Notes under the pieces: generated by a model
Databases searched by the model: none
What the model saw: the letters and a program-made list of their open reading frames with translations, nothing else
What the model was told of the DNA's origin: nothing
Program-made: the position numbers and the translations under genes
NCBI GenBank assembly: GCA_013151255.1
Contig: JAADIQ010000098.1
Coordinates: forward strand, 1 to 64,000
Origin: Alphaproteobacteria bacterium
GTDB taxonomy: Bacteria; Pseudomonadota; Alphaproteobacteria; Caulobacterales; Parvularculaceae
Direction of reading: 5' to 3'
DNA length: 64,000 nucleotides
In this document: one piece after another, positions 13,213 to 44,208 of the stretch
Layout: each line of letters starts with the position of its first letter
Position numbering within the stretch: position 1 is the first letter of the stretch

Positions 13213-14360
13213 GATCGCTCGCGCTCCGCATTTTCAAAGCTTGCAGCATCGCCGACAGCTTCAAACAAATGGTAAAGAATACTGGCCGGCACGTCACGCG
13301 CTAGGGCTGCGCCATTGGCGTCAAATTGGTCGCACCAAAGCCCGGCGACGTCTTGGGCGAGGTAGCTCTTAAACAGCATGTCTATGAGGGCGCCGGCGCG
13401 CGCCGCCATCGCCTTGTCGCCGCGCCGCGCCAGGGTGATGGCGGCTTTGATATATTCGGTCTGCGGCCACAGCCGTCTTGGGCCGGGCAGGCTCTCCTTG
13501 CCGAGGCGCACCGTGTCGCGCAGGAAGCCGGCGCTATCAAGCCCGATCTCCTCGGCGCGACTATAAAGCCGCGTCATCTGTGCGGTGCTGTCGGTTGCGA
13601 ACAGGGCGTCATAATGCCCGAGCAGCCAAACCCACTCCATCATATGGCCGGGTTCGATAAGATCGCCTTTGTCCGTGCTAAGGGCGAAGTCCTGGTCAAA
13701 AAATTCACGCAACACGCCGTCGCGTTGGTCGAAGAACACGGTTTCAAACAGGGCGTAGACTTGCGCGGCGTAATCGCCATAGGCGCTGTCGCCGGTGGCG
13801 CGGTAGAGCGCCATGAACGCTTCCAGCAAATGCATGTGCGGGTTTTGCCGCCGCGGCGTCTCGCGCTGGTCGCTTTCAAGCCAGCCGCCATGGGGGGAGG
13901 CAAGCTCATGGTTGAGAAAAGCGATGATGCGTTCCGCCAGCGCCAGCGCGCGCGTGTCTTGCGCCGCTTGCCATCGTGACGCACAGGCGAGCAAAGCGAA
14001 GGCCTGGTCATAGAGATCGCGGCGATCATCGAGAACCGTTCCGTCATCGGACAGATGATGGACACAGCCGCGCGCGCCTTCATCCGGGCAGGCCTTAGTG
14101 AGAAAATAATCGAACCCGGCAGCGGCAAGCGCTTCGTAATCGGCGCCCCAACCGCGCAAGGCGGCTTGCGAGAAGGTGTGGATTTGCCGCGCCTGAACCC
14201 GCACCCTTCGCGGCCGGCCGGTCACCGGCGCGCCGGTGAAATCCAGACATTCGTAAAAGCCGCCGCGTTTGGCGTCATAGCCTTGTGCGCGCCACAGCGC
14301 CAATGCGTCGTCGCGAAACCAGCGCTCGAATGTCGATACGGACTGGCGCAACGCCGTCAT
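13209..14360 (-). CDS. AGE family epimerase/isomerase, likely mannose-6-phosphate isomerase
   Basis: This belongs to the N-acylglucosamine 2-epimerase / mannose isomerase superfamily, an (alpha/alpha)6 barrel. Recognisable parts are RVRVQARQIHTFSQAALRGW near residues 50-70, LYDQAFALLA, RQNPHMHLLEAFMALYRATG and LIEPGHMMEWVWLLGHYD, carrying the histidines expected in the barrel. I start at the ATG at 14360 (MTALRQSVST) rather than the track's upstream TTG. The 3' end overlaps manC by 4 bases. That pairing favours a fructose-6-P/mannose-6-P isomerase role feeding GDP-mannose, although a GlcNAc 2-epimerase cannot be excluded. Confidence 0.85.
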   Translation of the reverse strand: MTALRQSVSTFERWFRDDALALWRAQGYDAKRGGFYECLDFTGAPVTGRPRRVRVQARQIHTFSQAALRGWGADYEALAAAGFDYFLTKACPDEGARGCVHHLSDDGTVLDDRRDLYDQAFALLACASRWQAAQDTRALALAERIIAFLNHELASPHGGWLESDQRETPRRQNPHMHLLEAFMALYRATGDSAYGDYAAQVYALFETVFFDQRDGVLREFFDQDFALSTDKGDLIEPGHMMEWVWLLGHYDALFATDSTAQMTRLYSRAEEIGLDSAGFLRDTVRLGKESLPGPRRLWPQTEYIKAAITLARRGDKAMAARAGALIDMLFKSYLAQDVAGLWCDQFDANGAALARDVPASILYHLFEAVGDAASFENAERERS

Positions 14361-21306: not shown

Positions 21307-21625
21307 GTCTTCCTCCCAGAATTATGATTGGTCAGGCGGTTTTCAAAACGCTAGGCATGGGAGAGGCTCTTGTCCACACTATTGTAGACAATTCTGTAAG
21401 CAAACACGCATAATTTTAATCATGTGGCAATTTTCACACGATCCTCGCCGCGTTCTCTAGTGAAACCTGCTAACTGAGGCGAGCATGCGGCTGTTTTCAT
21501 GAATCTGCCGGCTAAAAAAGGGCAATAAGGCGCGCATTCTTTTTGAATAGCGGCGGAGAAATTGAAGGTTTCTATTTGGAATGACAATGTTGTATGCAGG
21601 ATTGCCAACAAAAGGAACGAGACCT
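21307..21625. other. Divergent promoter region of TonB receptor and GntR regulator
   Basis: This 319-base gap separates the minus-strand receptor from the plus-strand GntR gene. It holds the receptor's GAGGAAG ribosome site, the palindrome at 21381-21392, and an AAAGGA ribosome site before the GntR ATG at 21626. The small ORFs listed here have no coding character. Confidence 0.6.
21381..21392. promoter_or_regulatory. Candidate GntR operator ATTGTAGACAAT
   Basis: This is a 12-bp palindrome with 5-bp perfect arms (ATTGT / ACAAT) around AG, placed 75-86 bases upstream of the TonB receptor ATG. It matches the TNGT-N-ACNA pattern of FadR-type GntR operators. Matching palindromes occur at 30273 and 31703-31729. 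Confidence 0.6.
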
Positions 21626-22279
21626 ATGCCGCAACCTGCAGCAAAACGACTTACGTCGGACGATATTGTGTTTGAGATGATCAAGCTGTTGCAGAAGAAG
21701 GTGTATCAACCTGGCGACCGGCTACGCGAACAGGAGCTCGCCACCAGGTTTGGCGTGAGCCGCGGTCCCATTCGTGAAGCCTTGCGCGCGCTGGAAGCAA
21801 AATCACTGATCAAAATAGAGCCGATGCGCGGCGCCTCCGTAACCAGGCTGAGTGACAAAGACGCAATAGAAAGCGTTGAAATTAGCGCCACTCTGTTTGG
21901 CTTGGCTGCGAATAAGGCGGCCGGGTGTGAACAACATTTCATTACAAAACTGCGAACGCAATTGAAAACGCTAAATGACATGGTCAATCAAGACACCTCT
22001 GCGAAAGCTTTTTTTCTGCAGACCATCAAAATGGGCATGATCGTCGTAAAAGCTGCGGGCAGCGATCGATTGGCGGCATTGCTCTCGGATATCCGCATCG
22101 GCGCCCCCGATCTGTTCGGCCCTTTTGGCTTTACGTCATCAACGTTGCGCAAAAAAGCAGCGACGAAATGGGCGCGAATGATAGATGCAATCGAATCTAA
22201 TGATGTGGATGCGGCGGAAAGAATCGCGCGCGAGCTCAACATGGATTCGCTAAAAGCCGCTCTTGAAATTGTCGGGTGA
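21626..22279 (+). CDS. GntR family transcriptional regulator, FadR type
   Basis: This is a roughly 217-residue DNA-binding repressor. The winged-helix part holds QPGDRLREQELATRFGVSRG then PIREALRALEAKSLIKIEPM, a clear GntR helix-turn-helix with the FadR-subfamily SRGPIREAL. The C-terminal all-helical domain is degenerate compared with FCD: the usual metal-binding D/H-x3-H pattern is not obvious. I start at the ATG at 21626 (MPQPAAKRLT) because AAAGGA precedes it; the track start is 45 bases earlier. It is divergent from a TonB receptor and probably controls it together with the serine hydrolases at 29-31 kb through ATTGTNNACAAT sites. Confidence 0.88.
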   Translation: MPQPAAKRLTSDDIVFEMIKLLQKKVYQPGDRLREQELATRFGVSRGPIREALRALEAKSLIKIEPMRGASVTRLSDKDAIESVEISATLFGLAANKAAGCEQHFITKLRTQLKTLNDMVNQDTSAKAFFLQTIKMGMIVVKAAGSDRLAALLSDIRIGAPDLFGPFGFTSSTLRKKAATKWARMIDAIESNDVDAAERIARELNMDSLKAALEIVG

Positions 22280-22419: not shown

Positions 22420-23991
22420 TTAATCGTTCTTTGGCGCTTGTGTCGATTGTTGTCGATCATAGAGGTTACGCCAATCTTCTGGCGGAAGCGGTAGCTGGCG
22501 GCTGTCCTTTTGTCGCGCAGGCTCAAACGCCGGACGCGGCTTGTCGGAGCGGACCTGTTCGAGCCAGAAGACGCCATCATATTCGCCGCTATTGCCACGC
22601 GTTGCAACGAAATCGATATCGCCATCGCCATCCATATCGTGCGGAATGAATTCGTCATACATGCCTCTTATCCGTCGCGAGATATCATGGCGAATCCATT
22701 CATTATACGGATTACCTGTATTTTGAAACCAGGTGATGCGGCCAACAGAAGAGGCGGCGGTAACGTCTGGATCGTCGTGATCACGCGCGGCGCCGGAATA
22801 TCCGCCGTCAAGCACATTCAGACCGGAATAGCCGCCAGCCATCACATCCAGGTCGCCATCATTGTCGATATCGGCAACGGCGAATCCAACGATTACATCC
22901 GGCATAACATCGCCAATTGTGAAGAACCGCCAAGGGTCTGAAAGACGGGCCGGCTGCCTTAGCCAGCCCAAGGAAACGACGAGCTCGTCAGTTCCATCTT
23001 CGACGATCACCATCACAAGATCAGTGCGCGCGTCGGCGTCCAAGTCAGCGTCCGCAGCATGAAACACATTTGTGCGTCCGCGCCATCCGGGCGGCATGTC
23101 CGCCCCGGGCGCTATTTCGATTGGTTCTACCGCCCACCCGCGCGCGCGTCGATCCGCCCGATCACTTTGTACGAGTAGCAGCGCCTTGTAGGTCAATCGT
23201 GATCCAGTTAAAATATCGACATCGCCGTCACGATCAATATCGATGGGCATTGCCGTATTCGGCACGCCAGCATCCCATAGTTTCATTTCCACCCATGAGC
23301 TTTGGTCAAGCGGATCACTGGTGATTTTGAAAACGGACAATACGCCGCTGCGGGCCTCTCCCGCGCTTACATCGATGACGTCAACGCCGCCCTTATTCGC
23401 AGCCAGAACTTCCGGCATGCCGTCGCCGTCCAGATCCGACATGAACACACGAAGCCATGACCCCCGGTTTTTAGTAATCGACGGAATTATGCGCGCCCAG
23501 ACGCCCCGGCGAATCTGGCGGCCGGGATTTTGTAGGTAGATGAGGTGACCGCGCTCGCAAGCAGCGACAATGTCAATCCAGCCATCGCGATTGAGATCGC
23601 CGAGTGCAACGTCCTCAATGGCGTTGACCTCTTCACCAAAGGCAACGGTGGTAAGAACCCATTCGTTCGGGTCATCCGTACCAAAAGCAATACGCAAATG
23701 ATCTGAATCCTCGTGAACGGATATGATATCAATATACCCATCGGCATCCAAATCCGCGAGCTTTAGCCCGTCGCCGCCGCGTATTGGAACGCCGCCATTG
23801 ATGTCTTCACCATCAATGAGATGCTCCGTCCAGGAAATATACGCGCCGTCGGGCGTTTGCGCTTGGGTCGGCGTCGAGGCGATGTTTTGCTGTGCAGGAG
23901 CGAGGCTTAATTTCTGGCTGCATCCGGACGCAATCATAAGCACAACGAATGTGATCAGGAAAAGGGGGATAGCAGAACATCCAGACTTCAT
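22420..23991 (-). CDS. FG-GAP/VCBS repeat lipoprotein
   Basis: This 523-residue secreted lipoprotein has a type II signal with lipobox MIASGC (MKSGCSAIPLFLITFVVLMI precedes it). The rest forms a seven-bladed integrin-alpha-like propeller: calcium-binding DxDxDG loops recur as DLDADGYIDI, DLNRDGWIDI, DLDGDGMPEV, DIDRDGDVDI, DADLDADART, DIDNDGDLDV and DMDGDGDIDF. I start at the ATG at 23991, which begins the signal peptide; the track uses a TTG 11 codons upstream. It is divergent from the DUF3604 gene across a 32-bp dyad, which suggests joint control. It has no catalytic motif and may bind carbohydrate or another exported protein. Confidence 0.85.
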   Translation of the reverse strand: MKSGCSAIPLFLITFVVLMIASGCSQKLSLAPAQQNIASTPTQAQTPDGAYISWTEHLIDGEDINGGVPIRGGDGLKLADLDADGYIDIISVHEDSDHLRIAFGTDDPNEWVLTTVAFGEEVNAIEDVALGDLNRDGWIDIVAACERGHLIYLQNPGRQIRRGVWARIIPSITKNRGSWLRVFMSDLDGDGMPEVLAANKGGVDVIDVSAGEARSGVLSVFKITSDPLDQSSWVEMKLWDAGVPNTAMPIDIDRDGDVDILTGSRLTYKALLLVQSDRADRRARGWAVEPIEIAPGADMPPGWRGRTNVFHAADADLDADARTDLVMVIVEDGTDELVVSLGWLRQPARLSDPWRFFTIGDVMPDVIVGFAVADIDNDGDLDVMAGGYSGLNVLDGGYSGAARDHDDPDVTAASSVGRITWFQNTGNPYNEWIRHDISRRIRGMYDEFIPHDMDGDGDIDFVATRGNSGEYDGVFWLEQVRSDKPRPAFEPARQKDSRQLPLPPEDWRNLYDRQQSTQAPKND

Positions 23992-24086
23992 AAAAGCCGT
24001 ACTGTTTTTAGAGCCGCCAACCAACGACTACGCGTTTTCATAGTTTGTATTCCTGCAAGCGCAAAAGACATAGAAATGCCTTGTTA

Positions 24087-24118
24087 TTATAGAAGATACG
24101 ATATAGTATCACCTATAA
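24087..24118. promoter_or_regulatory. 32-bp dyad operator between FG-GAP and DUF3604 genes
   Basis: The inner arms GATAC (24095-24099) and GTATC (24106-24110) flank GATATA. The outer arms TTATAG (24087-24092) and CTATAA (24113-24118) add a second pair at equal 2-base offsets, so 11 of 13 positions per arm pair. It lies between two divergent genes. A TetR-family gene downstream (26176) is the natural candidate to bind it, because TetR operators of this size are common; this link is inference. Confidence 0.65.
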
Positions 24119-24233
24119 TCGCGGCCGACAACAAGAATTAAGACGTTTGGCGCGCTCCAAATTTTTGACAGGCCGTTTGCGCCGGCAACGCTAACGAAAA
24201 CCGCATCGAAGCAAGTAAGGACACCATTTAGCG

Positions 24234-26114
24234 ATGGCTCAATGTGACGGTTCAAAAATTTTAACAACACCGACAAGAATTTTCGCCGCTGCCGTGGCGC
24301 TTGCTCTCGCTTTAGCCGGGCTGAGCATCACAAGCCGTGCTCACGCTCAGGAAATGCAGCTTTATTGGGGCGACACCCATGTGCATACGAATTATTCTTT
24401 CGATGCTTATCTGTTTGGAAACAAAACCGCCGACCCAGACACAGCATACAGGTTCGCAAGGGGTGCGCCGGTTTTGCATCCGGCAACCAGGGTGCGGATC
24501 CAGTTAGATCGCCCCCTCGATTTTTTGACTGTAGCCGATCATGCCGAAGCGCTTGGCGTTATCAGACGCCTGGACGCCCGCGACAAAAGAATACTCGAAA
24601 CTCGGTTTGCCAAAGAAAACAAAGCGGCGTTTGCTTCAAATAACGGCTTGGAAATTTTTCGCCGCCTTGCGCAAGGGCTTAGCAAAGGCGAAAACCATGA
24701 TTTATATTCGGAGTTGCAAACCCCTGAAATTCTGGCGCCAGCGTGGAATGACGTGATTACCGCCGCTGACCGAAATAATCGGCCAGGTGAGTTTACCGCC
24801 TTGATTGGTTGGGAATGGAGCTCTGCGCCAGGCAATGCGAATTTACACAGAGTCGTCGTAAGCGACGCCAATGCGAGCACTGCATCGAACTTTCTACCCT
24901 TTTCTGCGATTGATAGCCAAGACCCTGAAGCGCTGTGGAGGTTTCTATCGGATACTGCATCCGAATTTGGCGTCAATTTTGTTTCTATACCTCATAATTC
25001 AAATTTATCGCGCGGCCTCGCCTTTGCTATTGAAGATGTCAACGGTCAACCGATTACAGCAGATTATGCGCGCAGGCGGATGATGTGGGAAAGAGTGGTT
25101 GAGGTCACTCAAACTAAGGGCGATTCCGAAACACATCCTGTTTTGTCTCCAACCGATGAGTTTGCCAATTTTGAATTCTATCCATTTCTAGTCTCTGGCG
25201 GTCAATATGGTGATGACGAAGAAATCAGCGGCGGAAGTTATGCTCGCTCAGCGCTAAAGCGCGGCTTGGCGATTCAAGGAGAGACTGGCGAAAACCCGTT
25301 TCAATTTGGCATGATCGGTTCAACCGACGTCCATACCGGCCTTTCTACAACTGGCGAACGCGAATTTGCCGGCAAGCTGCCAATGATGGCGACGCCTGAG
25401 GCGCGATTAGATCGAAAAAAGAACCTCGGTGATGACAGGGTCAATACGTGGGACATGGGGGCTCAAGGCCTTGCGGCTGTCTGGGCGGAAGAAAATACGC
25501 GGCAATCGATCATCAACGCGTTCCGACGGCGTGAGGTTTATGCGACGACGGGTTCAAGAATTATGTTGCGGGTGTTTGCGGGGGCATCGCTCAGCCCACG
25601 AATAATCAAGTCTCGAAACTGGATAGAAAAAGCCCGCTCAAAAGGAGTGCCGATGGGCGGAGAGCTTTTTGGCGGCGACACTGAAAAACCCCCAACGTTC
25701 CTCATTCAAGCCGTAAAAGACCCGCGCAGCGCCAGCCTTGACCGCGTGCAAGTGATCAAGGGGTGGCTGGATTCCTCTGGCGAAATGCATGAACAGGTCT
25801 TCAATGTCGCCCTGTCCGGTGATCGTATCATAGCCGCTGATGGCTCAGCGCCGGCATTGCTCGACACAGTCAACCGTGAAAATGCAAGTTATGACGCCGC
25901 TTCCGGCAATACAGAGTTTCTCGTTGCCTGGACCGATCCTGTCTTTAGAGCTGATGAACCAGCCTTCTATTATGTGCGCGTTCTTGAAGCGCCAACGCCG
26001 CGTCATTCCCTCTACGACCAGGTAGCGCTGCAAGAAACCATTCCAGGAAATGTGACGCTGACCCTGCAGGAGCGCGCTTACAGTTCTCCCATCTGGTACA
26101 CGCCCGCCCAATAA
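24234..26114 (+). CDS. DUF3604 secreted protein, PHP-like metallo-phosphoesterase fold
   Basis: This 626-residue exported protein has a signal peptide ending SRAHA-QE (about residue 38). The DUF3604 hallmark follows at once: LYWGDTHVHTNYSFDAYLFG, with the metal-binding WGDxHxH. Further conserved metal-site segments are FLTVADHAEALGV, VSIPHNSNLSRG and IGSTDVHTGLS, giving the His/Asp pattern expected of a PHP-type fold. Proteins of this family are widespread in marine bacteria, with no established substrate that I know of. It is followed by tetR, a parvulin and a HupE/UreJ gene on the same strand, and shares its promoter region with an FG-GAP lipoprotein. Confidence 0.9.
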   Translation: MAQCDGSKILTTPTRIFAAAVALALALAGLSITSRAHAQEMQLYWGDTHVHTNYSFDAYLFGNKTADPDTAYRFARGAPVLHPATRVRIQLDRPLDFLTVADHAEALGVIRRLDARDKRILETRFAKENKAAFASNNGLEIFRRLAQGLSKGENHDLYSELQTPEILAPAWNDVITAADRNNRPGEFTALIGWEWSSAPGNANLHRVVVSDANASTASNFLPFSAIDSQDPEALWRFLSDTASEFGVNFVSIPHNSNLSRGLAFAIEDVNGQPITADYARRRMMWERVVEVTQTKGDSETHPVLSPTDEFANFEFYPFLVSGGQYGDDEEISGGSYARSALKRGLAIQGETGENPFQFGMIGSTDVHTGLSTTGEREFAGKLPMMATPEARLDRKKNLGDDRVNTWDMGAQGLAAVWAEENTRQSIINAFRRREVYATTGSRIMLRVFAGASLSPRIIKSRNWIEKARSKGVPMGGELFGGDTEKPPTFLIQAVKDPRSASLDRVQVIKGWLDSSGEMHEQVFNVALSGDRIIAADGSAPALLDTVNRENASYDAASGNTEFLVAWTDPVFRADEPAFYYVRVLEAPTPRHSLYDQVALQETIPGNVTLTLQERAYSSPIWYTPAQ

Positions 26115-26175: not shown

Positions 26176-26853
26176 ATGTCAAAAAACAATAACACGGTAA
26201 CGAAGACGCCTGACGTTGAAACAGTGGATGGCCGCACGACGCGTTATGCCTCTCATAGAATACAACGTCGGGAGGCTCTGCTTGAGCAAACAACTGTGCT
26301 CTTGGCGAAATATGGGTTGCGCGCTTTAACGATCGACGACATCGTTGAAAGGCTGGATATAGCCAAGCCTGCTCTTTATCGCTATTTCAGTTCGAAAGAA
26401 GATCTGATCCGGGCTACGCTGACCCGCGCCCGAGAAGATCTTGTGGAGGCGGATATGGCGGCTGACAATAGTGATTGGCGGCTGCAATTGCTCGGCGCCA
26501 TTCGTTTCATCGCCGTCCGACCCGAGGCTTTTATAGTCTTATACCGGCACGCCGCTAATGATCCGGAATACCACTCGTATTTCAAGGCATACTTCGATCA
26601 AGCGTCGGAACTCACGTTGGAACGTCTTGTCAGGTTTTCTGCAAATAGTCCGGACACGCCAGTTAGCTTCGATTTTTGCGCACGCGCGCTCGTATCATTT
26701 ATTTTCAGCGCAACACTAACATGGATTGAAGATGGGGCTTGGGAAATCAAGGCGTTTCACAAATGGCTTGTGCTTTCAGCGGTCGCACTTACCGAAAGCT
26801 GGGCGGTGTTCACATTCGAATCCGCCGCTGAAGAAGAAAATTTCGGCCAGTAA
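26176..26853 (+). CDS. TetR family transcriptional regulator
   Basis: This 225-residue regulator has the N-terminal TetR fold: RREALLEQTTVLLAKYGLRA then LTIDDIVERLDIAKPALYRY FSSKEDLIRA, with the recognition helix near residues 60-68. The C-terminal ligand domain is not assignable to a known inducer class. It lies 61 bases after the DUF3604 gene and 134 bases before the parvulin gene. The likely target is the 32-bp dyad at 24087-24118. No such dyad was seen directly upstream of this gene, so it may be co-transcribed with the DUF3604 gene. Confidence 0.9.
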   Translation: MSKNNNTVTKTPDVETVDGRTTRYASHRIQRREALLEQTTVLLAKYGLRALTIDDIVERLDIAKPALYRYFSSKEDLIRATLTRAREDLVEADMAADNSDWRLQLLGAIRFIAVRPEAFIVLYRHAANDPEYHSYFKAYFDQASELTLERLVRFSANSPDTPVSFDFCARALVSFIFSATLTWIEDGAWEIKAFHKWLVLSAVALTESWAVFTFESAAEEENFGQ

Positions 26854-26987
26854 CCTCGACATTCAGATAGCTTGCACGCCGTGACCCAACCCGCCCAAGA
26901 GCATTGCCGTGCTGAGCCCTTAATTTGGGCCCGAAAAAAATTTACCGCCGCAACCGCAACGGCATCAGTCTGTTTGAGGACAAGCAT

Positions 26988-27983
26988 ATGCAAAAAAACA
27001 AAGCCTTTATCAAAAGACAAGCGGAGGAGCCTAGGCTTTTGGGGGGCACGGGGAATAGCCGCGATAAAGGCCGAGCCACGAGTTTGTTTTGGTCTGCAAA
27101 GCGGCTATTTAGCGACCCGCTTACTCATTTTCTGATTATTGGTTTTATTATATTTTCTACCATAACCGCTTTATCGCCGGACGAGAACGAGGCGGTCATT
27201 ATTGTCGATGACGCCGCTATCTTAACGTATATTCAGTATCGTTCGAAAGCATTTGATGAAGAAAGCGCATGGGCGGCATATCGCAATCTTAGCGCTGATG
27301 AGAAAACCACATTAGTCAATGACTATGCCCGAGAAGAAGCGCTCTACCGTGAGGCAAAAAAACTTGGCTTTGAAAATGGCGACTACATCATACGTCAGCG
27401 ATTGATTCAAAAACTCGACTTTATCGCTGAAGCTGGTTCCATTCCACCATCACCTGATGTCGCGGAGATGCTTGAATTTTACACAAACAACAGCGATGAA
27501 TTCAGCGAGCCGGAACGCGCGTCATTTACACACATATTCTTTTCAAAGGACGGCAGTTCATACAACAATGCTTTGGTGCGCGCGCGCGCTGCTCTTTCCG
27601 TAATTGAGCGAGCGGAAACGATGCAAGATGGTAGCGAATATGGAGACCGTTTTCTTTATCAATCAAGATATACCAACCGAACGCATGATCAGATTGTTGA
27701 TATGCTTGGCCCCAAGGCTGCCGAGTTAATTTTTTCGCCAGAGGCATCAATAAATCAATGGGTTGGGCCGGTAACATCTCATCATGGCGTACACCTCATA
27801 TTCATTTCGAGCCGGCGCGCACAAATGACCGAACCGTTTGAAGCCGTGCAGGATATTGTAGAAGATCGAATGAGGCGGGAGGAGATCGCCAAGCGAAAGG
27901 CCGATTACATCAGGCAAATCGTCACCAACTATCAAATCAAGACCAAGCTATCGCCGCTGCACGATGCTGGCTTCACTGAATGA
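26988..27983 (+). CDS. Membrane-anchored parvulin-type peptidyl-prolyl isomerase
   Basis: The 331-residue protein has one N-terminal membrane anchor (PLTHFLIIGFIIFSTITAL, about residues 45-63) and a periplasmic PpiC/SurA-like part. AREEALYREAKKLGFENGDY and IIRQRLIQKLDFIAE are the helical SurA-like chaperone arm. PERASFTHIFFSKDG and INQWVGPVTSHHGVHLIFIS form a rotamase domain. I start at the ATG at 26988 (MQKNKAFIKR), preceded by GAGGA, instead of the track's codon 63 bases earlier. It overlaps the HupE/UreJ gene by 4 bases (ATGA). It probably assists folding of an exported partner, possibly the DUF3604 protein or the HupE-like periplasmic domain. Confidence 0.86.
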   Translation: MQKNKAFIKRQAEEPRLLGGTGNSRDKGRATSLFWSAKRLFSDPLTHFLIIGFIIFSTITALSPDENEAVIIVDDAAILTYIQYRSKAFDEESAWAAYRNLSADEKTTLVNDYAREEALYREAKKLGFENGDYIIRQRLIQKLDFIAEAGSIPPSPDVAEMLEFYTNNSDEFSEPERASFTHIFFSKDGSSYNNALVRARAALSVIERAETMQDGSEYGDRFLYQSRYTNRTHDQIVDMLGPKAAELIFSPEASINQWVGPVTSHHGVHLIFISSRRAQMTEPFEAVQDIVEDRMRREEIAKRKADYIRQIVTNYQIKTKLSPLHDAGFTE

Positions 27984-28978
27984 AATTAGGATTGAACATA
28001 GTTCTTGCCGGTCTAATACTCATCTTTAGCCAGGCGGCGTTTATAGCACGCGCCGAAGCCCATGAGGCTCGCCCCATCTACATTGAACTGACGCAAACGG
28101 GTCAATTTACTACCGTTTATTGGTCGACGCCGCCAACGCTTGCACAACGCCTCGCACCTAGAATTTCACTGACCGGTTGCAATTTGATCAAAGTGGTTGA
28201 TGGCGCCGCGTCCAGCGCCAACTTCCTCTCCTACAAATGCGCCAGCGTTTCCGGTCGGGTCTTGAATCTGGATTTTCCGTCTTACAATCCGTCACTCTCA
28301 ACAGTTATTAAGTTGCGCAAAGATGGAAAGAACCAGTTTGTCACTTTGGTCCCAGGCGTTTCACAATGGGTTGTGCCAGAAAATACAACCGGCGGCCAAA
28401 TCATCAAAGACTATTTCAGGATTGGGATCCAACACATTCTTCGCGGCGCCGATCACCTCCTGTTCCTCGCCGGCCTGATGTTTATCGCGCGCACGCCGGC
28501 AAGGATTTTGACCACCGTTACCGGTTTCACATTGGCGCATTCTCTCACTATTTTCCTAACGGCATTTAATATTATTCAGGCGCCTATCTTTGCGACCGAA
28601 ATTATTATCGCTTTGTCCATAGTTTTTCTTGCTAGCGAGATCGCTCGTAACAACAGGCAAACGCTCACCTGGCGCAGACCAATATTTGCAGCGTCAATCT
28701 TTGGTCTGTTTCATGGAATTGGGTTTGCTTCAGCTCTGGGTGAGATTGGGTTGCCGCAAACGGATCGAATTTTCGCTCTTGTTTTCTTCAATCTAGGCGT
28801 GGAGGCTGGCCAGATACTAGTTGGCGTCGCCCTGTTTTCTGCAGCGCGCTTATTCCTCGTATGTTTCGATCAAAAGAGAAGCGATACAATGAAACCGCAT
28901 TTGCAGACAGGCTTAGCATATATGCTAGGTATCGTATCTTCTGCCTGGTTCTTCGAAAGGCTTTTAAGTGCGGCGTAA
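27980..28978 (+). CDS. HupE/UreJ family membrane protein
   Basis: This 332-residue protein has a signal-like N-terminus, a periplasmic domain of about 130 residues (EARPIYIELTQTGQFTTVYW), then about six membrane helices. The HupE/UreJ-2 signatures are DYFRIGIQHILRGADHLLFL and FGLFHGIGFASALGEIGLPQ, with the conserved histidines H-x4-GADH and FHG. Classical HupE/UreJ proteins are nickel/cobalt permeases, but no hydrogenase or urease gene is present, so the metal role here is unproven. Translation is coupled to the parvulin by a 4-base overlap. The end of the operon is at 28978. Confidence 0.87.
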   Translation: MKLGLNIVLAGLILIFSQAAFIARAEAHEARPIYIELTQTGQFTTVYWSTPPTLAQRLAPRISLTGCNLIKVVDGAASSANFLSYKCASVSGRVLNLDFPSYNPSLSTVIKLRKDGKNQFVTLVPGVSQWVVPENTTGGQIIKDYFRIGIQHILRGADHLLFLAGLMFIARTPARILTTVTGFTLAHSLTIFLTAFNIIQAPIFATEIIIALSIVFLASEIARNNRQTLTWRRPIFAASIFGLFHGIGFASALGEIGLPQTDRIFALVFFNLGVEAGQILVGVALFSAARLFLVCFDQKRSDTMKPHLQTGLAYMLGIVSSAWFFERLLSAA

Positions 28979-36912: not shown

Positions 36913-37800
36913 ATGTTTTATCTGGGCGTAGACGCAGGCGGCACCCATTGCCGGGCGCAGCTGATCAATGAAGATGGCATCCTGGTCGGCTTTGGCGAAG
37001 GCGGGCCCGGCAACACCCGACTTGGCATTGACGCATCATTTGCAAGCATTGAGCAATCCTTTCGGCAGGCCTGTCAAAGGGCGCAGTTGGAATCGCATCA
37101 GCTTACGCAAATTGCAGCGGGACTGGGCGTCGCCGGGGTGGAGCGCGACGGCGCTAAGGAAAAATTGCGAACATGTCCGTTCCCGTTCAACACGGTTGAG
37201 ATTGCGAGCGATGTGGAAATTGCGAATTTGGGCGCCCATAGCGGTCAGGATGGCGCCGTCGTTATCGTTGGTACGGGAAGCATTGGGTTCGCGCGTTGTA
37301 AAGGCGAAACGTTTCGTGTCGGCGGGTATGGTTTTCCGATTTCCGATGAAGGCAGCGGCGCCTATCTTGGATTGCAGGCTTTGCGTGTTACGCTCAGGGC
37401 CGCAGACGGGCGGATTTCCGGAACCAACTTCACAGAAAATCTTTTTGGTGATTTTGACGCATCCTCCAGGAAGATTGTCGCCTGGATGGATGAAGCCGGG
37501 GCGACGGAATATGCAACGCTCGCGCCGAAGGTCGTTGAATATGCCCGCCAGGGAGACAAAATCGCTGCTGACCTTATGCGTCGTGCGGCTGAACATGTGA
37601 ACGCGATGGTGGAGAGCTTGTCAGACTGGGGCGCGCCGCAATGTTCTATCATTGGCGGTCTCTCGGAGCATATTATTGACTGGCTTCCGCATCGGACAGC
37701 CTCAAACATCAAGCCGCCGGAAGGCCAACCGATCGATGGCGCTATTCTTCTCGCCAAGACCCTCACGACGACAAATCGCCTCGCGCCCTCCAAACAATAA
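36913..37800 (+). CDS. nagK: N-acetylglucosamine kinase, BadF/BadG family
   Basis: This ATP-dependent sugar kinase converts GlcNAc to GlcNAc-6-phosphate. The 295-residue protein has the actin-fold phosphate-1 motif YLGVDAGGTHCRAQLINEDG (residues 3-22), the GEGGPGNTR loop, a phosphate-2 segment DGAVVIVGTGSIGFARCKGE and ISDEGSGAYLGLQALR, all typical of bacterial GlcNAc or GlcN kinases in the BadF/BadG/BcrA/BcrD family. The start has a strong AAAGGAGG. It is the first gene of the nagK-anmK-deaminase-nagA-nagX operon. Glucosamine kinase is an alternative, but the nagA downstream favours GlcNAc. Confidence 0.85.
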   Translation: MFYLGVDAGGTHCRAQLINEDGILVGFGEGGPGNTRLGIDASFASIEQSFRQACQRAQLESHQLTQIAAGLGVAGVERDGAKEKLRTCPFPFNTVEIASDVEIANLGAHSGQDGAVVIVGTGSIGFARCKGETFRVGGYGFPISDEGSGAYLGLQALRVTLRAADGRISGTNFTENLFGDFDASSRKIVAWMDEAGATEYATLAPKVVEYARQGDKIAADLMRRAAEHVNAMVESLSDWGAPQCSIIGGLSEHIIDWLPHRTASNIKPPEGQPIDGAILLAKTLTTTNRLAPSKQ

Positions 37801-37816
37801 CCGGCCTTGTTCAAGC

Positions 37817-39019
37817 ATGCTTAAAGACATTGAAAAACTCGCCGTCGTCGCCGCAAAAGAGGAACGAACCATCATCGGGCTGATGAGCGGCACGTCGTTG
37901 GATGGGCTTGATATTGCGTTGTGCAAAGTTTCAGGTTCTGGTCGCGACACCAAAGTCTCGTTGGAGGCATTTGCAACGGCGCCTTACCATGATGATTATC
38001 GGAGCAACATCGGCGCAGTTTTTTCAAAGCGCGATGTCGACCTAGAATTGGTGTGCCTGTTAAACCCTTATGTGGCAAGAATACAGGCCAGGCTCATAAA
38101 TCAACAACTCAGAGCCTGGGATGTACAGCCCCAGGATATTGATTTGATTGCGAGCCACGGACAAACGATTTATCACGCACCGAAATCGCAGCACAAACGA
38201 GATGTGTTCTCAAATGCAACACTGCAAATCGGCGATGGCGATCATATGGCGCTTGAAACCGGCGTCATAACGATCAGTGATTTTCGCCAAAAACACATCG
38301 CCGCGGGCGGCGAGGGCGCACCGCTTGCAGCTTATGGGGACTATCTTATTTTCAGCACCCCAGCAGAAAACCGAATTCTTCTGAATATTGGCGGTATCGC
38401 AAATATCACTTTCCTACCCAAAAGCCTTGAGGCGAGGGAAGTCTTCAGCACCGATATCGGGCCGGGCAATACAATCATGGACGCCTATATACGAGAGTAC
38501 TTTCCCGGAAAGCTCTACGATACGGACGCTGAGCTTGCTGGCGCCGGCGCCGTTCATGAACGGCTCTTGAGAGAGCTGATGTCGTCGGAATTTTTCGCAG
38601 TCGGATTTCCAAAAACCACAGGCCCAGAATTATTCAATTTGGGTTATCTAAAGCGCGCCCAACAAAACACTGGGACACAAGCGCTTAGCCACACGGATAT
38701 TATGGCGACCTTGAACCGGTTTTCCGCCGAGACTATCGCAGAGGCTATTGTCGCATGCCCGGCGTACCCGGCGAGCGCGACTATCTTCGCGAGCGGCGGC
38801 GGCGTTCATAACCCACTGCTAATAGCGACAATTCAGAACCTGCTGCCGCAAACCGATATCAAATCGACAGCTGAATTGTTTGTTGATCCCGATGCGAAAG
38901 AAGCAGTCCTGTTCGCCATTCTTGCTAACGAATGCGTAGCAGGGCAGGGCGCCGGCATCGGCAATCCAGACGCTGGCATACCCAGCATATCCATGGGCAA
39001 GATAAGCCTGTGTCATTGA
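37817..39019 (+). CDS. anmK: Anhydro-N-acetylmuramic acid kinase
   Basis: This converts 1,6-anhydro-MurNAc from peptidoglycan turnover into MurNAc-6-phosphate. The 400-residue protein shows the family opening TIIGLMSGTSLDGLDIALCK (about residues 19-38), ASHGQTIYHAP, and RILLNIGGIANITFLP, followed by FSTDIGPGNTIMDAYI. These cover the ATP and sugar sites. I start at the ATG at 37817 (MLKDIEKLAV), 16 bases after the nagK stop; the track start lies inside nagK. Its product is the substrate of MurQ encoded 5 kb downstream, so this is a genuine recycling link. Confidence 0.93.
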   Translation: MLKDIEKLAVVAAKEERTIIGLMSGTSLDGLDIALCKVSGSGRDTKVSLEAFATAPYHDDYRSNIGAVFSKRDVDLELVCLLNPYVARIQARLINQQLRAWDVQPQDIDLIASHGQTIYHAPKSQHKRDVFSNATLQIGDGDHMALETGVITISDFRQKHIAAGGEGAPLAAYGDYLIFSTPAENRILLNIGGIANITFLPKSLEAREVFSTDIGPGNTIMDAYIREYFPGKLYDTDAELAGAGAVHERLLRELMSSEFFAVGFPKTTGPELFNLGYLKRAQQNTGTQALSHTDIMATLNRFSAETIAEAIVACPAYPASATIFASGGGVHNPLLIATIQNLLPQTDIKSTAELFVDPDAKEAVLFAILANECVAGQGAGIGNPDAGIPSISMGKISLCH

Positions 39020-39069
39020 CGCGCCTTCACCGCCATAGACGCCCCGCTCGCTCACAAGAAAGCAATGGC

Positions 39070-40107
39070 ATGATCGAAGATTATTCTGGGACGCAAATGT
39101 ATGCCGAGGCGGCGCAGGCCAGTGATCGCGTAGAACAACAATCTAGAGAGATCAGGCCTGGCGTTGATGAGCTCGGCCGGATGTTTGGGGCCAACCGGTT
39201 TCATACCGTCCTCACCTGCGCACGCGGAAGTTCCGATCATGCCGCAACCTACGCCAAATATTTGATTGAGACGGAACTTGGCATTCCCGTCGCATCTTTC
39301 GCGCCTTCAATCGCGTCGGTTTATCATGCGCGACAGCGTTTGGAAGGCGCTTTGTTTCTGGCGATCTCACAATCGGGCGAGAGCCCTGATCTTTTGGCGG
39401 CGGCGGAGCATGCGAAAAAATACGGGGCAAGCGTTGCGGCCCTCGTCAATAACACAAGCAGTCCGCTTGCTGATGGTGCAGATATTGTAATCCCTATGGG
39501 CGCCGGGCCGGAACTGAGCGTGGCGGCGACAAAGTCGTTCATCTGTTCTCTTTGCGCCATTGCGCGCATCGTTGAGGCGGGCGCCAACAACACAAAGCTC
39601 AGCGCCGCATTGCCAGGCCTCCCGTCAGCGCTTTCCAAGGCGTGGTTATGTGATTGGTCGGAAGCGATTGAGCCGCTGGCGTCCGCGACAAATCTTTTTG
39701 TCATCAGCCGCGGGCTCGGTCTGTCCATCGCTTGCGAAGCGGCGCTAAAACTCAAAGAGACTTGCGCCCTGCATGCCGAAGGCTATAGCGCCGCCGAGGT
39801 GAAGCATGGCCCCATGGCGATAGCCTCCGACGGGTTTCCTGTCCTGGCTTTTGCCCCCTCGGACAAAACAGGCATAGGCTTCGATGCGCTGATAGAAGAA
39901 TTTTCATCGAGAGGCGTTAATTGCATGGTCGCCGGACTAAACCTGGCTAATGCGCTGCATTTGCCGAGCGTTGATGCGGGCGCTCACCAACTCACCCCAA
40001 TCGTACAAATACTCTCATTTTACCGCTTCGCGAACGCCCTGTCCTGCCGCCGTGGTCTCAACCCCGACGCACCGCCATTTTTAAAAAAGATCACGGAGAC
40101 GCGCTGA
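39070..40107 (+). CDS. SIS-domain glucosamine-6-phosphate deaminase (NagB-II type)
   Basis: This 345-residue protein has two SIS domains resembling the isomerase half of GlmS, the non-orthologous replacement for NagB. The first domain shows VLTCARGSSDHAATYAKYLI and ALFLAISQSGESPDLLAAAE. The second shows FVISRGLGLSIACEAALKLK then ETCALHAEGYSAAEVKHGPM, with the Glu and His of the isomerase site. It should convert GlcN6P to fructose-6-phosphate and ammonia. I start at the ATG at 39070 (MIEDYSGTQM); the track's start is inside anmK. Its TGA overlaps the ATG of nagA by one base. Confidence 0.87.
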   Translation: MIEDYSGTQMYAEAAQASDRVEQQSREIRPGVDELGRMFGANRFHTVLTCARGSSDHAATYAKYLIETELGIPVASFAPSIASVYHARQRLEGALFLAISQSGESPDLLAAAEHAKKYGASVAALVNNTSSPLADGADIVIPMGAGPELSVAATKSFICSLCAIARIVEAGANNTKLSAALPGLPSALSKAWLCDWSEAIEPLASATNLFVISRGLGLSIACEAALKLKETCALHAEGYSAAEVKHGPMAIASDGFPVLAFAPSDKTGIGFDALIEEFSSRGVNCMVAGLNLANALHLPSVDAGAHQLTPIVQILSFYRFANALSCRRGLNPDAPPFLKKITETR

Positions 40108-41261
40108 TGCTGGCAATTCATGGCGGCGAAATTCTTGTTGACGATGCATTCAGAAGCGATGTCTGTGTGTTGGTTTGCGATGGCGCCATCAAGGATATTG
40201 TGAGCCAATCTGATGCGCCGTCGCAGGCGGATCGCTACGACCTTAAAGGCGGATATCTCACGGCCGGTTTTATTGACCTGCAAGTCAATGGCGGCGGCGG
40301 CGTCATGTTCAATGATGCGCCGACCGTCCAAACGATAGAAAAAATTGCAGCCGCCCATCGTGCATTCGGTACGACAGGTTTTTTGCCGACGCTCATCAGT
40401 GATGATTTTGACATTATCCGCGAAGCGATCTGCGCGGTGGACGAGGCCATAAAGATTGGAGCGCCGGGTGTTCTCGGTATTCACCTCGAAGGCCCGTTCC
40501 TGAATGCAGAAAAACGCGGCGTGCATGACGTAAAAAAGCTGTTGCCGCTCGATGAGGCGTCGATAGATTTGATCTCATCGCTGAAGAACGGCGTAACGCT
40601 TGTGACTTTGGCCCCAGAAATGACAATGCCGGGCCAGATACGGGCGTTGACAGAGCGCGGCGTCATCGTTGCGGCCGGCCATACAAATGCTAGCTATGCG
40701 CAAATTAATGCGGCTATCGCAGAAGGCCTCAGCGGTTTTACGCATTTGTTTAACGCCATGTCGCAGCTAGGCTCGCGCGAGCCCGGCGCGGTTGGCGCCG
40801 CACTCGATTCAGACAGCGTGTGGGCTGGGATCATCATTGACGGCTTCCATGTTCACGACGCGTCGTTGCGCCTTGCGTTAAAGTGCATGTCGCCGGCCCG
40901 TGTTGCGCTTGTCACCGATTCCATGGCGACAGTTGGCAGTGATATCGATAGCTTTTCGTTAGGCGGCGCCATCGTAACGTCTAACAATGGCAAGCTTACA
41001 ACACCGCAAGGCACGCTTGCCGGCTCCACGCTCAACATGATGCTGGCGGTAAAAAACTGCCGTGCACGCTTAAATGTTGATCTTGCAACCGCGATACAAA
41101 TGGCGACGGCAACCCCTTCGCGAGCGTTAGGCTTACAAAATGCCCGGGGAGCGATTTTCACAAGCATGAAGGCCGACCTGGTTCACTTTTCCAGCCAATT
41201 TGATGTCGTTGAAACCTGGATCAACGGCAGCGCCAGCGCGTCGTCAAACCGGGATCGGTAA
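40107..41261 (+). CDS. nagA: N-acetylglucosamine-6-phosphate deacetylase
   Basis: This removes acetate from GlcNAc-6-phosphate to give GlcN6P. The 384-residue amidohydrolase has the metal-binding glutamate in LGIHLEGPFLNAEKRGVHD, the metal histidines in IVAAGHTNASYAQ and FTHLFNAMSQL, and the catalytic aspartate in ALVTDSMATVG, all in the expected order. It follows the deaminase with TGATG overlap and precedes the NagX-like gene by 3 bases, so these steps are translationally coupled. No alternative assignment is likely. Confidence 0.95.
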   Translation: MLAIHGGEILVDDAFRSDVCVLVCDGAIKDIVSQSDAPSQADRYDLKGGYLTAGFIDLQVNGGGGVMFNDAPTVQTIEKIAAAHRAFGTTGFLPTLISDDFDIIREAICAVDEAIKIGAPGVLGIHLEGPFLNAEKRGVHDVKKLLPLDEASIDLISSLKNGVTLVTLAPEMTMPGQIRALTERGVIVAAGHTNASYAQINAAIAEGLSGFTHLFNAMSQLGSREPGAVGAALDSDSVWAGIIIDGFHVHDASLRLALKCMSPARVALVTDSMATVGSDIDSFSLGGAIVTSNNGKLTTPQGTLAGSTLNMMLAVKNCRARLNVDLATAIQMATATPSRALGLQNARGAIFTSMKADLVHFSSQFDVVETWINGSASASSNRDR

Positions 41262-41264
41262 GCC

Positions 41265-42356
41265 ATGCCCCAGCGGCCGGAAAACCAACGCTTGTTGTCC
41301 ATCGACGCGCTACGTGGTTTCGATATGTTCTGGATTATCGGCGGCGATTTTCTGGCGCATGCGCTTGCCGACGCCACAGCTTTTCCCGCTTTCTTGTGGC
41401 TGTCCGCACAAATGCGCCATGCCGATTGGATCGGCGTCAATTTATACGATCTGGTATTTCCGCTATTTATGTTTTTGTCGGGCGCGTCTGCGGCAATCGT
41501 CCTATCGCGCAAGGATAATTCAAAAGCTCCCAGTACTTATATATCCGGCGCGGCAAAACGAGCGCTGATCCTGATCCTTTTGGGAATAGCGTATAATTGG
41601 GGGTGGGATATAACCGCTGAACGTTTTCGTATTCCCAGCGTGCTTGGTCTTATCGGCGTTGCATATCTCATCGCCATGATAATCCTTGTCACAATCAAAT
41701 CCTGGCCGCGGCGCGCAATGATGCTTGTAGCAATCTGGGTTTTTGTCGCATTGCTTCAACTCGCTACGCCAGTACCCGGTTTTGGCGCCGGCGACCTCAC
41801 CGCTGCGGGCTCCATCAATGGATGGATAGACCGAACTTTTTTGCCGGGCCGGCTCTATGGCGGCGCTTATGATCCCGAAGGGCTGCTCGGCATGATTTCA
41901 GGCGCGAGCATTACATTGGCCGGCGCCTTTGCAGGGGCGCTGCTGGTAAAACCAAACAAGACTTATTTAAAAAAGACCGCCATCCTTGCCGGGACGGGCA
42001 TCGTTCTCATCCTATCGGGTTTAGCTTTGGCGCCATACTATCCACCGATCAAGAAACTATGGACGGTGACGTTTGACCTCATTGCCATCGGCGCCTGTAA
42101 CATATTCCTGGCGCTTTTCATTATACTGATCGAGCAGCTTCGCTTACGGCGGTGGGCAACATTCTTTGCGGTCATTGGGGCCAACTCCATCGCCATCTAT
42201 ATGGTTGCGCGCTTTTTTGCCTATCCGGTGCTTATTCCGCTTTCGACTTTTGACGGATCAATCGGGTTGAGGATTTTAGGCATTATCGCCATTCTCGCGG
42301 TCGAGTGGGGCTTGCTTTTCGCCCTCTACCGCAAGCGGATTTTCGTGAAAGTTTGA
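41265..42356 (+). CDS. nagX: NagX-like membrane protein (DUF5009/HGSNAT-related)
   Basis: This 363-residue integral membrane protein has about 10 helices. It opens with RLLSIDALRGFDMFWIIGGD, the conserved start of the heparan-alpha-glucosaminide acetyltransferase-like family, and continues NLYDLVFPLFMFLSGASAAI. In several proteobacterial GlcNAc regulons a gene of this family (NagX) accompanies nag genes and was proposed to act in sugar transport or transmembrane acetyl transfer; its function is not firmly known. Position immediately after nagA in the same operon supports the NagX name. It could partly replace a missing dedicated transporter. Confidence 0.85.
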   Translation: MPQRPENQRLLSIDALRGFDMFWIIGGDFLAHALADATAFPAFLWLSAQMRHADWIGVNLYDLVFPLFMFLSGASAAIVLSRKDNSKAPSTYISGAAKRALILILLGIAYNWGWDITAERFRIPSVLGLIGVAYLIAMIILVTIKSWPRRAMMLVAIWVFVALLQLATPVPGFGAGDLTAAGSINGWIDRTFLPGRLYGGAYDPEGLLGMISGASITLAGAFAGALLVKPNKTYLKKTAILAGTGIVLILSGLALAPYYPPIKKLWTVTFDLIAIGACNIFLALFIILIEQLRLRRWATFFAVIGANSIAIYMVARFFAYPVLIPLSTFDGSIGLRILGIIAILAVEWGLLFALYRKRIFVKV

Positions 42357-42595
42357 GCAGGTAAAGAGTTTGCGGCCTTGCGCGAGCCCCCCGTCAGCGC
42401 AGCCGTTTGCCTGCCGGGCCCAATAATCCGCCTGATTTTCCGGCGTTTACCATAATCACTGGCTTTACAAAGGTATAGCACCAATTTAATACATATTATG
42501 GGCCGCGTTGGCGACTTTACTATAGGTTTTCTGAGGCGGCCGTTTGCGTGGAGCCAAATTAGCCTGTGGCGAAACACAGGGACATGGGGGCGTGG

Positions 42596-43477
42596 ATGCC
42601 AACTGAGCACCTGAATGAACGATTCGTTGAGATCGACAGCTGGTCTACTGCGGAAGCCGTTGAGGCCATGCTGGAAGGACAATTGAGCGCTGTTGCGGCG
42701 GTAAAGCCGATTACGCCGCTGATTGCCAAGGCGAGCGAGCATGCATCGGCGAGGTTGGCGCGCGGCGGACGGTTGGTTTATGTCGGCGCCGGTACATCGG
42801 GGCGAATTGCCGCTCAGGACGGCGTTGAATTGACGCCCACCTTTGGCTGGCCAAAAGACAGAATCAAATTTGTCATTGCTGGAGGGCTGGAGGCATTAGC
42901 CGCAAGCGCTGAGGCCGCAGAAGACGACGGCGGCGCATCTGCTGAAGCGCTTTCTTCTTTAAACTTGAACGCCGAGGATGTTGTTATCGGCGTTGCGGCC
43001 AGCGGCGAAACCCGGTTCACTGTCAGCGCGCTTGAGGCTGCGAACAAGGTTGGCGCCCTTACGATTGGTATTGCGAACAACGAAAACACGCCCCTGCTTC
43101 AAGTGGCGGAATTCGGGCTTTGCGCGGAAACAGGAAGCGAGCTTGTCGCCGGGTCAACACGGATGAAAGCCGGGACTGCACAGAAAGTAATCCTCAACCT
43201 GTTTTCGACGGCGACAATGATCCGTTGCGGGAGGGTCTATAAGGGCTTGATGGTGAATATGCTGATTTCCAATTCAAAACTGAAACGGCGCGCAACTGAA
43301 ATCGTGCAGCAGCTCACAAATACTGATGTTGAAACCGCAACAAAAGCGATTGAAGCCGGGCAGGGGGATTTAAAGTCTGCAATTTTAATCGGCCTGGGCT
43401 ATGGTCGCGAAGAAGCCGCCTCCCGGCTCCAATCCAGTAACGGCAACCTGCGGGCCGCCATTGAGAACAACAGCTAA
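42596..43477 (+). CDS. murQ: N-acetylmuramic acid 6-phosphate etherase
   Basis: This cleaves the lactyl ether of MurNAc-6-phosphate, giving GlcNAc-6-phosphate and D-lactate. The 293-residue SIS-family protein has the core LVYVGAGTSGRIAAQDGVEL with the catalytic glutamate in GVEL, then VIGVAASGETRFTVSALEAA, and LVAGSTRMKAGTAQKVILNL. I start at the ATG at 42596 (MPTEHLNERF), which lines up with family N-termini; a GTG at 42566 and an ATG at 42584 are alternatives. A 240-base gap before it suggests its own promoter, with a candidate regulator word at 42473-42485. A GntR/UTRA gene follows by 11 bases. Confidence 0.92.
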   Translation: MPTEHLNERFVEIDSWSTAEAVEAMLEGQLSAVAAVKPITPLIAKASEHASARLARGGRLVYVGAGTSGRIAAQDGVELTPTFGWPKDRIKFVIAGGLEALAASAEAAEDDGGASAEALSSLNLNAEDVVIGVAASGETRFTVSALEAANKVGALTIGIANNENTPLLQVAEFGLCAETGSELVAGSTRMKAGTAQKVILNLFSTATMIRCGRVYKGLMVNMLISNSKLKRRATEIVQQLTNTDVETATKAIEAGQGDLKSAILIGLGYGREEAASRLQSSNGNLRAAIENNS

Positions 43478-43488
43478 GGAATTTCTCC

Positions 43489-44208
43489 ATGGAGGATCTA
43501 AGCCCTAGCAAAGCCAGCAACACGCCGCTCTATCTACAAATTGCCAGCAACCTACGCAATCGGATCAACACTGGCGGCGTTGGCACGGGCGAAGCACTGC
43601 CGTCGGAGCGCGACCTGAGCGAGCTGACGGGCGCCTCGCGGGTCACCATTCGCAAAGCGATAGACACGTTAATCGCGGAGGGGTTGCTGTTTCGCAAGCA
43701 AGGCTCCGGCACTTTCGTATTGCCTCGGATCGAGGCGCCAGGCTCTTACTTAAGCGGATTTAGCGACGACGCGCGCGCCCGCGGAGATGAACCGCGCGCC
43801 CTATGGATTGTCAAAGCCTACGCCCCTCCAACCAGTGACGAGGCATCGCATCTGAATGTGTCCGCTAGTGCAGAAGTTGCACGATTAGGCCGTGTACGGC
43901 TTTCCGGCGGCGAGCCGTTGGCGATTGAGCATGCGGTGGTTCCGAAGCACCTGCTGCCGCCTTTGGATGATATCGGCGATTCTTTGTATGATGCTTTAGA
44001 AAGCATGGGCAACCGCCCCGTTACAGGCAAACAAAAAATTAGGGCGTCCCTCGCCACCCCGACTGAGGCCGGCTTGCTGATGATAAAGGAGAACAGCGAA
44101 ATTCTCCGTATCGAGCGGATAACAAAACTGGCCGATGGAACCGTTGTTGAGTTCACACGATCTGCTTATCGTGGCGACCGATACGATTTTGTTTCAGACC
44201 TTCAATAA
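43489..44208 (+). CDS. GntR/HutC family regulator with UTRA domain (NagR-like)
   Basis: This 239-residue regulator has an N-terminal winged helix, TPLYLQIASNLRNRINTGGV then LPSERDLSELTGASRVTIRK, with GLLFRKQGSGTFV closing the domain. The C-terminal part (about residues 85-235: RARGDEPRALWIVKAY, LGRVRLSGGEPLAIEHAVVP, FTRSAYRGDRYDFVSDLQ) is a UTRA sugar-phosphate-binding domain. Position between murQ and dld in a nag locus points to a GlcNAc6P- or GlcN6P-responsive repressor. The start has AAGGA 7 bases upstream. This is distinct from the FadR-type GntR at 21626. Confidence 0.88.
   Translation: MEDLSPSKASNTPLYLQIASNLRNRINTGGVGTGEALPSERDLSELTGASRVTIRKAIDTLIAEGLLFRKQGSGTFVLPRIEAPGSYLSGFSDDARARGDEPRALWIVKAYAPPTSDEASHLNVSASAEVARLGRVRLSGGEPLAIEHAVVPKHLLPPLDDIGDSLYDALESMGNRPVTGKQKIRASLATPTEAGLLMIKENSEILRIERITKLADGTVVEFTRSAYRGDRYDFVSDLQ

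Follow-up and report, generated by a model that had tools for sequence, protein, structure and literature searches.

A dyad ahead of a DUF3604 gene is the probable operator of a TetR-family regulator encoded in the same predicted operon

What binds the symmetrical DNA between two divergent genes of an alphaproteobacterial contig, and which genes does it govern? The window, the 64-kb stretch of DNA analysed here, carries an FG-GAP repeat lipoprotein gene on the minus strand (22420–23991, start ATG at 23991) and a DUF3604 gene on the plus strand (24234–26114), and the 242 bp between their start codons hold a dyad at 24087–24118. A first-pass annotation had described this dyad as two tiers of inverted arms with equal offsets, controlling both genes with a TetR-family protein as the partner. 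Checking the sequence, we found the letters exactly as claimed (TTATAG, AA, GATAC, GATATA, GTATC, AC, CTATAA), and the symmetry continues one pair further outward. The full two-tier dyad thus spans 34 bp at 24086–24119, ATTATAG-AA-GATAC-N6-GTATC-AC-CTATAAT, with 14 of 17 pairs matching, including two of the three spacer pairs. Its inner dyad, GATACGATATAGTATC at 24095–24110, contains the core GATAC-N6-GTATC; neither element is assigned a strand.

Symmetry of this kind has to be weighed against chance. An equal-scoring dyad arose in only one of 2000 dinucleotide shuffles of the 242-bp region, in agreement with the annotation's view that such an arrangement is hard to obtain by chance between genes, but about one dyad of equal score is expected somewhere in the whole 64-kb window (0–2 per shuffle), so the symmetry by itself is moderately strong evidence at most. 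The exact two-tier pattern had no second match in the window at up to three mismatches, and a version with shorter arms matched nowhere else in the genome. The core occurs once in the 3.12-Mb genome, at the dyad, and a search of that genome for a regulon returned no second exact copy. Core matches with one or two mismatches were in modest excess in the window (21 in total vs a shuffle mean of 13.9), and none of them was promoted to a regulon site. The top-scoring dyad of the window lies elsewhere, at 13404–13443; it is GC-rich and 40 bp long, with 16 of 20 pairs matching.

The proposed binder of the dyad is the TetR-family regulator encoded at 26176–26853 on the plus strand. Its N-terminal helix-turn-helix domain scores far above threshold (PF00440, 53.1 bits vs a cut-off of 24), and its C-terminal ligand domain is a marginal match (PF21943, TetR_C_46, 27.7 bits vs a cut-off of 27). 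The protein is rare, with matches at E<=1e-15 in six of 149 related genomes, its own included, and no second close homologue was found in the family or the class. The closest homologue (50% identity) comes from genome G023 of the same genus, where its gene and one for a PQQ dehydrogenase diverge from an intergenic region that contains TGATACTAATTCGTATCA. Read on the minus strand, the window site is TGATACTATATCGTATCT, which is identical to the G023 site at 15 of 18 positions, spacer bases included. In another family of the order, a TetR homologue and a TonB receptor flank GATACTAACTTGTATC (G064-C55). A second G064 cluster, around a paralogous TetR, has the exact core ahead of an AMP-binding ligase gene (GATACTAATTTGTATC) and again in a divergent region (GATACTTAAAAGTATC); contigs with matching gene order carry the latter site in G100 and both sites in G571. 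The TetR/TonB promoters of G064-C18, G100, G571 and G687 retain just eight of the ten core bases.

Overall, for all seven TetRs matching at E<=1e-75, the promoter region of the gene itself or of a divergent neighbour holds either the exact core or its 8/10 version, whereas more distant TetRs recovered with the same profile (E>=1e-44) were without such a site. A chance match to the core has a probability of about 5e-5 for the 165-bp G023 region and about 3e-5 for the G064-C55 region of roughly 100 bp. In the homologous sites the flanking bases are asymmetric and differ from one another, and only the inner 16–18 bp are kept. As far as these sequences go, the core tracks this TetR group while the adjoining genes differ. 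Since it travels with the regulator, it is very probably the operator of that regulator, and the inner dyad is very probably the operator of the 26176 TetR. The annotation's choice of TetR as the partner was therefore well founded, the same core adjoining homologous TetRs next to unrelated genes; of its two tiers, the inner one is conserved as a putative operator, whereas the outer arms are not conserved in the homologous sites.

At least one core is present in 237 of 398 genomes of the order, or about 0.9 sites per genome by a Poisson estimate. Where the flanking gene was read, the core also adjoins a TetR in a separate lineage (G068, G135, G143 and G615); this TetR is a more remote relative whose recognition helix differs. 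The presence of the core beside a distant TetR with another recognition helix (genus g14) indicates that GATAC-N6-GTATC is not exclusive to the subfamily studied here. In genus g14, a different TetR is separated from an epimerase-type gene by a region with two neighbouring dyads, ACATACTATTTAGTATGT and AGATACCAAATAGTATCT (L111:4870–4920, L112:4115–4165). Our literature search for a TetR operator with GATAC found nothing.

If the inner tier is the operator, what are the outer arms? Each reads as a perfect TATAAT directed away from the centre, one per strand: 24086–24091 on the minus strand is a candidate -10 box for the FG-GAP gene, and 24114–24119 on the plus strand is a candidate -10 box for a promoter of the DUF3604-TetR-PpiC-HupE genes. 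We ruled out the arms as part of a conserved operator, the homologous sites being neither symmetric nor conserved there. They are probably the -10 boxes of two divergent putative promoters and not a second recognition tier, which would place the operator at the -35 regions, where a single dimer could obstruct both promoters. Neither TATAAT has a matching -35 partner, and no promoter reached 9/12 in a scan of both strands (TTGACA-like at 16–18 bp). Downstream of the dyad, a TTGACA at 24165–24170 (plus strand) may be the -35 element of an alternative putative DUF3604 promoter; it has no good -10 partner at 16–18 bases.

The dyad sits upstream of the DUF3604 and tetR genes, which we infer to form an operon with its promoter in this region. 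Next on the plus strand are genes for a membrane-anchored PpiC/Rotamase_2 isomerase (26925–27983, PF13145; these are the limits of the reading frame, and translation may in fact begin at an ATG further downstream) and for a HupE/UreJ_2 protein, an anglerase-type permease with a predicted N-terminal His after its signal peptide (27980–28978, PF13795). In most relatives across the order, and on gammaproteobacterial contigs, the DUF3604, PpiC and HupE/UreJ_2 genes are contiguous without a TetR gene, whereas in the window tetR is placed between the first two. From this gene order, it is plausible that tetR and the operator were added to an older DUF3604-PpiC-HupE/UreJ_2 set, creating an autoregulated operon. 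The tetR gene comes second in the operon and is not arranged divergently with respect to the dyad, and the 61-bp gap ahead of it could be the site of a separate tetR promoter.

The dyad does not belong to the DUF3604 family as such. Looking for it upstream of other DUF3604 genes, as the annotation had suggested, we recovered the core in none of 54 regions (8/10 bases once at best, 6–7 in the rest), and we therefore rejected a family-wide element, a general DUF3604 signal being unsupported. This absence is to be expected of a site that belongs to the TetR.

The DUF3604 protein itself (PF12228, E=5e-217) carries a predicted signal peptide and would be an exported PHP-like metalloenzyme. The closest PDB match of its structural model (pLDDT 84) is 3e38, a PHP-like metal-dependent phosphoesterase (E=1e-6), and residues H49, H51, D102, H103, H254, D365 and H367, forming HxH, DH, H and DxH motifs, are invariant. 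The modelled fold and the His/Asp metal motif support the prediction of a PHP-like enzyme, upholding the annotation on this point. The two proteins differ in overall structure, with a low TM score of 0.26–0.28 (by query length) and 12% identity, and in length, 342 residues in 3e38 vs 626 in the DUF3604 protein. A sequence search for a solved relative found none, and a literature search on the family gave only a passing mention.

Further indications of function come from the gene set. The HupE neighbours share a conserved A-H-[E/D]-x-R-P N-terminus, and an N-terminal His is predicted in nearly all HupE proteins of the gene set. Together with the conserved DUF3604-PpiC-HupE arrangement, this links DUF3604 to metal uptake, and a reasonable guess is that DUF3604 is an exported enzyme that depends on metal and has a metal-uptake partner of its own. 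Recently described Ang-1-HupE/UreJ-2 anglerase permeases bear an N-terminal metal-binding His, according to the parts of PMC12537917 drawn on here, and the window HupE resembles them in its signal peptide, the conserved N-terminal His that follows and its PF13795 domain. Those same parts make no mention of DUF3604 or PpiC neighbours, whereas the DUF3604-PpiC-HupE link was seen in this analysis.

We place high confidence in the following model. A TetR dimer would bind the inner dyad with one recognition helix per half-site. From there, the product of the tetR gene inserted between DUF3604 and PpiC would repress the operon, its own gene included, in negative autoregulation, and the same bound dimer would probably also occlude the divergent FG-GAP promoter, because the outer arms present an outward-facing TATAAT on each strand. 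The TetR would be released by a small ligand; an acid or a CoA thioester from the breakdown of an ester- or lipid-like substrate is the probable candidate.

The divergent branch is where this model meets its most serious competitor. The FG-GAP gene encodes three repeats (PF13517) and a lipobox (LMIASGC), which support the lipoprotein of the first-pass annotation, and its control via the dyad is our hypothesis from position. Good homologues are present in five other genomes and none adjoins DUF3604; among the relatives searched, the two genes did not recur as a conserved pair. We give some credence, well short of even, to a dyad that serves as a TetR operator for the DUF3604-TetR-PpiC-HupE operon only, leaving the FG-GAP gene a bystander with its own promoter. 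The neighbours of the FG-GAP homologues elsewhere, MFS transporters and carboxylesterases in place of DUF3604 or this TetR, are consistent with such a bystander, as is the finding of no FG-GAP gene beside other TetRs. However, the minus-strand TATAAT abuts the operator about 95 bp ahead of the lipoprotein ATG, and the dyad lies between both genes at a distance that fits both.

Could a different regulator bind the dyad? A GntR/FCD regulator gene (21581–22279) lies 1.8 kb away, a 34% homologue of its product accompanies the core-bearing clusters of G064, G100 and G571, and the G687 cluster also includes a GntR gene. We consider it improbable that this regulator and not the TetR is the binder, since the stretches of 12–13 kb that carry the G023 and G064-C55 sites encode a TetR and no homologous GntR, and the common neighbour of the sites is the TetR. 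It is very unlikely that the dyad works as an RNA hairpin, be it a terminator, an mRNA stabiliser or a leader: although the strand folds stably (-13.4 kcal/mol, z = -4.0), any palindrome this long would fold, no U-tract follows the dyad, Rfam gave no match, and the homologous sites keep their inner 16–18 bp with changed arms, as protein binding predicts. Equally slight is the likelihood of a functionless chance palindrome, of which the window should hold about one, given the position between divergent starts, the genome-wide uniqueness of the core and its recurrence beside homologous TetRs.

The GntR/FCD genes are of interest in their own right. Their presence (21581–22279 and L079:6227–7054) both near the window site and in the TetR clusters of G064, G100, G571 and G687 hints that ester or acyl-CoA catabolism is a common theme. 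The conserved TetR cluster, seen at L079, L080 and L130 with a TonB receptor, GntR, a DUF1254/DUF1214 protein, an acyl-CoA dehydrogenase, an AMP-ligase and esterases, is apparently a catabolic regulon. Elsewhere in the window, a gene run at 36913–44208 resembles amino sugar use, judging by the translations; it encodes a BadF-type kinase, an AnmK-like kinase, a sugar isomerase (SIS), a NagA-like deacetylase, a MurQ-like etherase and a GntR regulator.

Returning to TetR control of the dyad, two known systems offer comparison. MbdR of Azoarcus sp. CIB is a TetR-family repressor whose ATAC-N10-GTAT sites overlap -10/-35 elements and start sites; it controls itself and several promoters, including that of a CoA ligase, and is released by 3-methylbenzoyl-CoA (PMC4424350). 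The ATAC/GTAT half-sites are shared with the window, and the clusters of the window TetR's relatives likewise include genes for an AMP-binding ligase and an acyl-CoA dehydrogenase, but the half-sites stand N10 apart in MbdR vs N6 here, and the similarity between the two proteins is mostly confined to the helix-turn-helix (PDB 4uds). In divergent regulators of the TetR/tetA type, the flanking genes are controlled from a palindromic operator within the short intergenic region from which they diverge (genome-context survey, PMC3511530). The window palindrome also occupies such a region, with putative control of the genes on both sides, whereas its tetR is the second gene of an operon and not divergent to its target. 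The contents of the relatives' TetR clusters (TonB receptors, esterases, AMP-ligase and acyl-CoA dehydrogenase), combined with the likeness to MbdR, suggest an acid or an acyl-CoA as the inducer of the 26176 TetR, which we regard as a lead.

A regulator and its operator can seldom be pinned down from sequence alone; here, the site and the regulator move together across genera while their targets change, and there is a good probability that the pair governs a DUF3604-family gene in this genome. The switch is of a well-known type, the operator/regulator pair is new, and its value lies in a testable handle on DUF3604. More speculatively, the pair may be a mobile switch set upon a conserved operon of metalloenzyme and metal uptake (DUF3604, PpiC and an anglerase-type HupE), in which a ligand derived from the breakdown of esters or acyl-CoA would induce a secreted PHP-like enzyme together with its metal supply. 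If so, the identity of the inducer would point to a first function for DUF3604. With a ligand that releases the TetR, or with tetR deleted, expression of the DUF3604 operon could be induced and the role of this family tested.
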